Positions 32,856 through 35,301 of a stretch of 35,301 nt of DNA are shown here, one piece after another. A program made the translations under genes and the position numbers. The notes below the pieces were generated by a model. The model saw only the letters and a program-made list of their open reading frames with translations, was not told where the DNA came from and did not search any database. This DNA comes from an uncultured Synechococcaceae cyanobacterium (GTDB lineage: Bacteria > Cyanobacteriota > Cyanobacteriia > PCC-6307 > Cyanobiaceae). The first letter of the stretch is position 1. The number at the start of each line of letters is the position of its first letter. The stretch covers positions 1 through 35,301 of the forward strand of contig CAIVPT010000240.1 in NCBI GenBank assembly GCA_903907855.1. The letters run 5' to 3'.

Positions 32856-34253
32856 TTGCCCCCAACCCCTGCCCGCCTCACCCTGCCCGACACGCTCCGC
32901 CTGGGGCTGTTCCAGGGGTGCCTGGGGATGTTGGCCGTCGTCTTTGCCGGCATGTTCAACGGCGTGATGATCAGCGAGCTTGCCTTCCCCGGCCTGCTTG
33001 TGGGCGGTGCCCTGGCCTTCGAACAATTCGTTGCCCCTGCCAGGGTGTTGTTCGGCCAGATCTCCGACGCCCATCCCGTCGCCGGCCGCCGCCGGGTCCC
33101 CTATGTCCTGGCAGGCACCGTCCTCTTCTGCGCCTTGGCGGTGCTTTCCGTGCCCCTGATCTTTCATGTGGGCCGCCTGCTGGAGAACGGCAGCCAGCCC
33201 CAGCTCGCCTTGGCCATCGCCGCCCTCTGTGGCCTGTTTTCCCTCTATGGCCTGTCGATCTCCCTGGCCTCCACCCCATACCTGGCGTTGGTCATCGATC
33301 GCACCAACGAAACGGAGCGTCCCCGTGCGGTTGGCATTATCTGGTGCATGCTCACGGTGGGCATCGTCATTGGCGCCGTCGCCATCAGCCTCAGCCTGCG
33401 TGGTCTCGACGGCATCGACGATCCCGTCCTGCTCGAACCCGCCCTGTTGCGTTTCATGGTCAAGGTGGCCGCTGTGGTTCTTGCCCTCACGGTGATCGCC
33501 ACCTGGGGCATGGAGCCTCCGGTCACCCCCGCCCCGGATGAACGCCCAGGCCAGCCCAGGGAAGACGCCGTCACCCTGGCTCAGGCCTGGCGCCTTGTTC
33601 GCTCGAGCCGCCAAGTGCTGGTCTTTTTTACCTTCCTGATCCTGTTCACCCTTGGCTTGTTCCTGCAGGATCCGATTCTTGAGGGCTATGGCGCCCAGGT
33701 CTTTGGCCTGTCGATCGCCGCACGCACGCAATTGAATGCCTTCTGGGGGGTGGGCACGTTGCTTGGCCTGCTGGCGGCCGGCTTCTGGATCGTGCCAAAG
33801 CTGGGCAAACTGGCCACCGCGCGCTTGGGGTGTCAGATGATCGTCACCACCTTGACCCTCCTGCTGGCCAGCGGGCTCACCGGTAACGCTGCTTTGCTGC
33901 GACTGGTGATGCTGCTCTTCGGCCTGGCGGCGGGCATCGGCACCAACAGTGCCCTCTGTCTCATGCTGGATCTCACGCTTCCCCAGGTGGCCGGTACCTT
34001 CGTCGGGGTGTGGGGGCTTGCCCAGGCCATGTCGAGGGCTCTAGGCAAGCTGATCGGCGGTGGTCTGCTCGATCTCGGACGCCGTCTTCCCTTCGGCGAT
34101 GGGGCCTATCCGGCCTATGCCCTGGTGCTCACGGTCGAGATTGCTGTGGCCGTTCTGGCCTTGAGGATGCTCTCCCACCTCAACATCCAGCAGTTCCGCC
34201 AGGACACAGTTGGATCGCTCGAACGGGTTCTGGCCCAGGAGGTGGGATCGTGA
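32856..34253 (+). CDS. BCD-family (PucC-like) MFS transporter
   Basis: A 465-aa inner-membrane protein with about 12 hydrophobic segments. The early LRLGLFQGCLGMLAVVFAGMFNGVMISEL, the RVLFGQISDAHPVAGRRRVPY loop and the late GIGTNSALCLMLDLTLPQVAGTFVG are typical of the PucC/LhaA (BCD) family linked to bacteriochlorophyll or chlorophyll handling during antenna assembly. In an oxygenic cyanobacterium a chlorophyll-related role is likely but unproven. I chose the TTG at 32856, five bases after the TolC stop; no ATG or GTG is nearby. The next gene is coupled by GTGA. Confidence 0.87.
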   Translation: MPPTPARLTLPDTLRLGLFQGCLGMLAVVFAGMFNGVMISELAFPGLLVGGALAFEQFVAPARVLFGQISDAHPVAGRRRVPYVLAGTVLFCALAVLSVPLIFHVGRLLENGSQPQLALAIAALCGLFSLYGLSISLASTPYLALVIDRTNETERPRAVGIIWCMLTVGIVIGAVAISLSLRGLDGIDDPVLLEPALLRFMVKVAAVVLALTVIATWGMEPPVTPAPDERPGQPREDAVTLAQAWRLVRSSRQVLVFFTFLILFTLGLFLQDPILEGYGAQVFGLSIAARTQLNAFWGVGTLLGLLAAGFWIVPKLGKLATARLGCQMIVTTLTLLLASGLTGNAALLRLVMLLFGLAAGIGTNSALCLMLDLTLPQVAGTFVGVWGLAQAMSRALGKLIGGGLLDLGRRLPFGDGAYPAYALVLTVEIAVAVLALRMLSHLNIQQFRQDTVGSLERVLAQEVGS

Positions 34254-35056
34254 GTGTTGCTGTAGAGCCCGGCGTCGATCCGGCCCTCCACGCCCTGGTG
34301 GATCGGGTGGCTGAGCGGCAGCGAGCCGACTTCGGCCACATGGTGTCCGATCTCAAGGCCGACGGCACCTTGATCACGGCCTGCGACCGCTGGAGCGACG
34401 CCGCCCTGGTCGGGGGTCTGGCCGAGCTGTTCCCGCAGGATGGGGTGCTCAGTGAGGAGGGCGATCAGCGCGTTCCCGCCACTGAGGCCTACTGGGTGGT
34501 TGATCCTCTCGATGGCACCACCAATTTCGCCGCTGGCATCCCCTATTGGGCCATCTCCATGGCCCGTTTCCACGACGGTGTTCCCGTTCTCGCCGTGCTC
34601 GATGTCCCCCCGCTGCGGCAGCGGATCGTGGCGATCCGGGGGCGCGGCGCCTGGCGCAACGGCAAACCCCTCTCCCCCCCTTCTTTGCATAGCCACCCTG
34701 CCGGCTGCGCCTCTCTCTGCAGCCGTTCGATCGGCGTGCTGCAGAAGCTGCCGGATCGCCGCTTTCCCGGCAAGATCCGGATGCTCGGGGTCGCCAGCCT
34801 CAATCTGGTGAGCGTGGCGATGGGCCAGACCGTCGCAGCCCTGGAGGCCACGCCGAAGATCTGGGATCTCGCTGCTGCCTGGCTGGTCCTTCACGAACTC
34901 GACTGCCCGCTGCGTTGGCTCAGCCGCGATCCCAGCCATATTCCGGCGGGTACCGATCTGTCCCAGACCGACTTCCCCGTGCTGGCAGCCGACCGGGCCG
35001 ACACCTTCGCCCGTTTCACGCCGTGGGCCGAGGCGCTGGTGTCGGCCGAAGGTTGA
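34250..35056 (+). CDS. Inositol monophosphatase-family phosphatase
   Basis: A 268-aa Mg-dependent, Li-sensitive-type phosphatase. The metal-binding Glu pair is in SEEGDQRV (about 71), followed by VVDPLDGTTNFAAGIPYWAIS (about 84) and the C-terminal WDLAAAWLVLHE (about 205), where WDLAAA replaces the more usual WDxAAG. In cyanobacteria this family includes inositol and histidinol phosphatases; the substrate cannot be chosen from sequence. The GTG start overlaps the transporter stop (GTGA) and has a strong AGGAGGTG ribosome-binding site, so translation is coupled. The stop codon lies inside the -35 box of the downstream promoter. Confidence 0.9.
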   Translation: MSVAVEPGVDPALHALVDRVAERQRADFGHMVSDLKADGTLITACDRWSDAALVGGLAELFPQDGVLSEEGDQRVPATEAYWVVDPLDGTTNFAAGIPYWAISMARFHDGVPVLAVLDVPPLRQRIVAIRGRGAWRNGKPLSPPSLHSHPAGCASLCSRSIGVLQKLPDRRFPGKIRMLGVASLNLVSVAMGQTVAALEATPKIWDLAAAWLVLHELDCPLRWLSRDPSHIPAGTDLSQTDFPVLAADRADTFARFTPWAEALVSAEG

Positions 35057-35080
35057 CTGCCTGCTCAGGGGTGCTATGGT
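35053..35080 (+). promoter_or_regulatory. Strong sigma70-type promoter
   Basis: TTGACT (35053-35058) and TATGGT (35075-35080) are 16 bases apart, with TG one base before the -10 (extended -10). This is the best promoter match in the window. The -35 overlaps the stop codon of the upstream phosphatase gene. Predicted start point about 35087. Confidence 0.75.
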
Positions 35081-35086
35081 TATGGA

Positions 35087-35301
35087 CTGCGCGGCCGAGA
35101 GGCAGCGCGGCCCTGTCGAAGGACGGGGTGAACCGGTCAGCCTGCTAGGTTGATCGGGCCTGCGAGAGAAGCCGAGGAGGCTTTTTGAGCGGGTGCCTAC
35201 CAGCCGAAGCGACCGAGGGTCCGACGGTGATGTAGGTTTCAGAGGTCGCCGCGAGGCGATGGCCGAGCGAGCCCGCGAGGGGGAGCCGGCAGCACCTGGA
35301 C
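35087..35301 (+). ncRNA. Candidate structured RNA or long leader of unknown family, cut by the window end
   Basis: The 215 bases after the promoter hold no convincing gene but several hairpins. HP1 35089-35108: 8 positions with one mismatch, GAGA loop. HP2 35111-35128: 7 bp, GAAG loop. HP3 35133-35157: 10 bp with G-T pairs, TGCTA loop. HP4 35166-35186: AAGCC/GGCTT, followed by T run. Further on are GACC/GGTC (35211-35221), TCGCC/GGCGA with a GCGA loop (35246-35259) and CCC/GGG with a GCGA loop (35272-35281). GNRA loops (GAGA, GCGA twice) are strand-specific and favour the plus-strand RNA. HP4 may end a short RNA of about 100 bases. I could not match RNase P RNA, 6S, SRP RNA or tmRNA landmarks. 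Confidence 0.5.

Follow-up and report, generated by a model that had tools for sequence, protein, structure and literature searches.

The locus at the end of the contig

The window analysed here, a stretch of 35,301 nucleotides from an uncultured Synechococcaceae cyanobacterium, is one complete contig (C240) in an assembly of 320 contigs. Near its right end lies a gene of the inositol monophosphatase family (34253-35056; Pfam E 2.4e-37), directly upstream of what is almost certainly the promoter of an rRNA (rrn) operon, and a chain of predicted hairpins runs from there to the last base. The features are listed below in the order in which polymerase would meet them.

35053-35058, plus strand: -35 element TTGACT, overlapping the phosphatase stop codon at 35054-35056
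35072-35080, plus strand: extended -10 element TGC TATGGT, with TATGGT at 35075-35080 preceded by TG
35086-35301, plus strand: probable 16S precursor 5' leader, first ~216 nt, assigned by a 99% copy on contig C123 and by homology to sequence that precedes 16S in relatives, with its start placed from the promoter
35087-35110, plus strand: HP1, GAGA loop; the stem includes the conserved CTGCGC of the transcript start
35111-35128, plus strand: HP2, from the predicted fold
35133-35157, plus strand: HP3, 11 pairs, closing on U-GCU-A, with counterparts in relatives' longer leaders
35158-35194, plus strand: HP4, Ts paired within the stem, not a terminator
35196-35237, plus strand: leader tail helix A, from covariance model R1
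35245-35260, plus strand: leader tail helix B, GCGA loop, from covariance model R1
35262-35290, plus strand: leader tail helix C, GCGA loop, from covariance model R1
35294-35301, plus strand: ACCTGGAC, where the leader's 5' strand of the leader-spacer helix begins, placed by that pairing in relatives

A sequence-only reading of this stretch had pointed to a near-consensus -35 and extended -10, and a scan for promoter-type sites places them at 35053-35080. The spacer between TTGACT and TATGGT is 16 nt, and together with the TG this is the sole site of its type in 33000-35301, where 0.3 would be expected. Judged by its sequence, this predicted promoter is probably used, and transcription would start near 35086, just past the extended -10.

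The predicted folding energy of the RNA from 35085 to 35301 is -117.7 kcal/mol, compared with an average of -93.3 for shuffled versions (z -5.5), and none of 200 shuffles did as well. All of the hairpins described earlier from the letters reappear in this fold, namely HP1 with its GAGA loop, HP2, HP3, HP4 and the two with GCGA loops, although HP3 comprises 11 pairs rather than 10, and the T residues into which HP4 was thought to trail (35182-35186) lie within its stem, where GAGAAGCC pairs with GGCTTTTT. Because these residues are stem-paired and GAGCGGG follows, HP4 has no terminator U-tract; correspondingly, a terminator scan found nothing at HP4 or near 35186. Open reading frames overlap the leader stretch mechanically, for example 34915-35148 on the plus strand, and frames are open on the minus strand too.

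A second copy in the same genome

The last 232 bases of the window (35070-35301) recur at 99% identity at C123:27315-27546, and C123 ends at the same base. The earlier reading was right to place a structured RNA at the contig end, but it had overlooked this two-copy repeat, which has a sharp 5' border beyond which the flanks differ: the phosphatase gene lies on the window side, and the C123 flank is, we presume, petB/petD-like. Between the two leaders there are differences at 35154, 35155 and 35160 only, the first two of them in HP3, and the predicted structure is identical. In the C123 copy the -35-like element is TTGACG, 19 nt ahead of the -10.

No 16S was found in this genome's own sequence, although stretches that read N could conceal one, and a same-genus rrn operon used as a query matched nothing in its 16S or 23S parts. 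On contigs C2 and C173 the query did match bases 1-63, which cover the last 55 bases of 5S, and it gave two weaker matches within its tRNA-Ala part (C37 and C181). The genome therefore contains two leader contigs and two contigs that begin in 5S, for which the simplest reading is that an rrn operon would be present twice and fall between contigs. The leader is cut off at 35301 because the contig ends inside this repeated operon. Since 16S is absent from C240 and was not found elsewhere in the genome, the link between leader and 16S rests on homology.

Leaders of rRNA operons in related genomes

In the one-contig genome G020, of the same genus, the homologous stretch precedes 16S in three operons, two of which were read onward as 16S-tRNA-Ile-tRNA-Ala-23S-5S with the leader in 16S orientation. 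The same leader stands ahead of 16S in G023, G012, G006, G003, G002 and G046. Of 39 other genomes, plain DNA similarity picked out the leader in 6, each belonging to the same genus, a low reach that follows from the fast evolution of the leader. When 41 other genomes of the genus were searched by 16S, 9 of them yielded a total of 11 loci, a low number for which draft assemblies, stricter search filters or N-masked stretches may account. Ten of these loci, from 8 genomes, were read, leaving out L023 with its 143 upstream bases; the transcript-start motif lies upstream of 16S in nine of the ten (the G046 contig starts at the motif itself), and the tenth, in G042, starts inside the leader-spacer helix. 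A 25-base promoter-end pattern with up to 2 mismatches found matches in 13 of the 41 genomes, and a similar 27-base pattern, required to match exactly, had none across the genome contigs.

Counted from the conserved transcript-start motif, leaders of relatives extend over 603-750 nt before 16S is reached (nine loci), and ~455-600 of these bases lie between the equivalent of the window's end and 16S. The suggestion that the window holds the 5' part of a longer noncoding RNA running past its edge is thereby borne out, as conserved structure in relatives continues towards 16S. Other Cyanobium and Synechococcus rrn leaders share with the window the extended -10, the transcript start, tail helices A-C and the ACCTGGAC block, but differ in the occurrence of HP3 and in the length of the stretch that opens with the start motif and closes with ACCTGGAC, which ranges over 146-268 nt in same-genus genomes. 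Among 21 distinct leaders with a length of 100 nt or more, folding z runs from -1.67 (G022) to -5.98. HP1, HP2 and HP4 vary with species, and within the 21 leaders folded the window's hairpin set recurs only in the C123 copy and in G056; HP3, traced via its TGCTAG string, has counterparts only in longer or truncated leaders of relatives.

Within G020, the leader of the third rrn operon (L030) shows 33 differences to the other two in its first 86 of 603 nt and is identical over the remainder, as if gene conversion might stop after 86 nt.

Beyond the tail, the relatives offer the partner of the strand that the window barely begins. In 10 of 10 loci, the sequence of the leader stretch ACCTGGAC...AGTTTAGGAACTGA complements TCAGTTCC...GTCTAGGT, which lies in the spacer that follows 16S, and the window contains just the first 8 nt of this leader strand. 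Pairing of the 32-nt leader strand with the spacer is predicted at -33 to -36 kcal/mol in each of the 8 loci taken for a shuffle test (two further G020 copies were left out), versus means of -17 to -19 for shuffled spacers and -29.1 kcal/mol for the best of 200 shuffled spacers per locus. Relative to the others, the G020 helix has a two-sided change from A-U to G-C, plus a change from U-A to U-G.

A further string that lies beyond the window, TGCACTCTTTGAACCC, occurs at -125 from 16S in 6 of the relatives' 10 loci (G023, G042, G012, G006, G003 and G002), and within 3 mismatches there is none in G020 or G046. It may resemble the antitermination signal boxA, and 5 of 8 loci from named genomes match it loosely; these are raw counts, uncorrected for chance.

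Covariation in the leader tail

Counts of covariation cover the tail, 35196-35301. Alignment A4 consists of 17 tails aligned on sequence only from a helix start chosen by eye. Of its 412 cells, 90.5% are paired, compared with 85.5% when shuffled and 36.5-50.1% when slid, a comparison in which the slid controls are biased in favour of the structure because it was drawn from the aligned sequences themselves. Two-sided changes occur in 23 cells versus 8.3 in shuffled alignments, and the covariation score is 0.241 versus 0.163; none of 500 shuffles was as high on either measure. Two other counts are unremarkable: pairs with a two-sided change (7 vs 5.2 shuffled; 64 of 500 as high) and further pair types (23 vs 20.7; 32 of 500 as high). 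In outer helix C the rows of the window and of the two G020 sequences seem shifted by one position, so that the count in this part comes out too low.

A covariance model built from A4, designated R1, matches at E<=0.001 in 47 of 80 phosphatase loci and in the window. The resulting alignment of 48 sequences (A6) has 92.9% of 952 cells paired and two-sided changes in 17 of 26 pairs, versus 8.6 when shuffled (0 of 500 as high), figures inflated by kinship and by fitting to the model, towards whose structure A6 leans; it also contains the window and four contigs whose equal lengths mark them as members of the training set (L053, L059, L062 and L084). The innermost pair of helix A fails in 23 of 47 cells of A6. 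With 150 candidates scored per genome, R1 found matches in 5 of 5 genomes of the genus and in 0 of 3 others. All three matches in G020 lie ahead of 16S, as does one of two in G023, the other being without readable downstream sequence; G004 and G008 have two matches each, in loci that end at or beside the match, and G000 has matches in two places.

The covariation among relatives that the sequence-only reading had proposed as a check is thus present in the tail helices, in A4 and A6 alike. Together with the folding z of the window, these covarying stems uphold its view of a real structured RNA that starts near 35086.

The extended -10 is a second conserved element. Among 70 distinct rrn upstream sequences, the pattern TG-N-TA-N3-T is nearly invariant, and the -35 is loose, with 5 or 6 of 6 matches to TTGACA in 20 of the 70 at free spacing. 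Three loci with too little upstream DNA were excluded from this set, and because the start motif was used to select all of the sequences and the -10 to select some, that share of the conservation is not independent.

The neighbouring phosphatase gene

The phosphatase falls below the cut-off of all 7 NCBIfam models listed, the best being HisN (97.5 vs 275 bits), and scores 56 vs 332 bits against PRK10757, which we take to be the SuhB model. Membership in SuhB is unsupported at the curated cut-off.

Of 22 loci tested, 10 carry a close relative of the gene; two of them represent a single operon. Among the best 80 of 477 relatives in named genomes, 57 have the strict start motif behind the gene, 49 of them within 150 bases of the stop codon and 8 more than 500 bases away; as for the rest, 10 loci end within 260 bases without the motif and 13 are longer without the strict motif. 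16S is visible in 8 of the 80. The phosphatase gene is a synteny marker, with a relative ahead of the rrn start motif in many Cyanobium and Synechococcus genomes.

One locus of this survey, L055 (CALPNT020000030.1), is titled as a Bifidobacterium breve MAG, and on it are a phosphatase gene and an rrn promoter of cyanobacterial type; it looks like a wrong label or a mixed bin.

A functional link between phosphatase and operon is speculation. The adjacency may be notable given that SuhB of E. coli, a member of the inositol-phosphatase family, is reported to act as an rRNA antitermination factor (PMC6614801). It is conceivable, albeit improbable, that tail helices A-C, together with HP3 in long leaders, form a lineage-specific protein-binding element for antitermination or 30S assembly, perhaps bound by the phosphatase.

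Identity of the contig-end element

With a probability of roughly 0.97, the contig-end element belongs to one of two rrn operons in a Cyanobium-like picocyanobacterium and comprises that operon's promoter and the opening ~216 nt of its 5' leader. The structured RNA at 35086-35301 is of a known kind, the start of an rrn operon and its 16S precursor leader, an identification that draws on the demonstrated repeat structure, on 16S synteny and leader-spacer complementarity in relatives, and on the covarying helices.

The readings first proposed for this stretch included an sRNA and a riboswitch leader. A new trans-acting sRNA of ~100 nt (35087-35186) with its terminator in HP4 would suit the promoter-like site and the stable hairpins; however, the Ts of HP4 lie within its stem and form no terminator, the part tested for covariation (35196-35301) lies downstream of the supposed end at 35186, conserved structure reaches the contig end, and in relatives the sequence runs into 16S. 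A discrete sRNA is thus very unlikely. Still less credit is due to the idea that a protein gene outside the window is preceded by a riboswitch or attenuator: a structured leader at a contig end is what it would look like, but nothing was found in its support, and the downstream gene in relatives is 16S. The earlier reading had also proposed a search of Rfam, and across 4227 families no match in the window exceeded a gathering threshold; the 7 weak matches in 34900-35301 are all far below gathering scores, the best (E 0.28) being to a microRNA model. What endures of that reading is a structured 5' part of a longer RNA, which is an rrn leader in place of an sRNA or riboswitch.

The repeat also invites comparison with a two-copy mobile element or self-splicing intron, whose 5' end would likewise show a sharp border and differing flanks. 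Each flank, however, supplies its own -35-like element, the genome yielded neither a group II intron RNA nor a reverse transcriptase family, and the homologous stretch in relatives is the rrn leader, whose position ahead of 16S already refutes such an origin; its likelihood is negligible. A search of 35040-35301 for phage or plasmid origin gave no match.

On the rrn leader reading, what stood out as an 'orphan' structured RNA marks the place where a contig breaks off within an rrn operon, and contig ends of draft genomes are likely to show further such cases. Two by-products are the conserved extended -10 promoter and a model, supported by covariation, of the 16S leader tail in picocyanobacteria, a tail that no Rfam 15 family matched. 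Among the papers listed on cyanobacterial rrn leaders, promoters and start sites, no title or abstract describes the leader, and absence from print is not claimed.

A proposed mechanism and its counterparts in other bacteria

We propose that RNA polymerase starts behind the extended -10 near 35086 and makes a chain of local hairpins, the leader folding locally while it emerges from the polymerase, as would be expected from what PMC10250234 reports for bacterial rrn operons. Once the spacer has been made, the leader strand would pair with it, and the long helix thus closed around the 16S precursor would be a putative substrate of RNase III-type enzymes. For Synechococcus PCC 7002, a review passage concerned with 23S reports three RNase III homologues, two of which act on the 23S precursor (PMC8708148). 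The local hairpins may serve as a folding aid for 30S assembly or as an antitermination platform.

The closest parallel was drawn on architecture. In E. coli and other Enterobacteriaceae, as described in PMC10250234, the pre-16S leader likewise has lineage-specific local helices followed by a long, covariation-supported leader-trailer helix, and the flanks are likewise far more variable than 16S itself. In the cyanobacterial relatives, whose leaders span the 603-750 nt given above, the helix partner sits in the spacer before tRNA-Ile.
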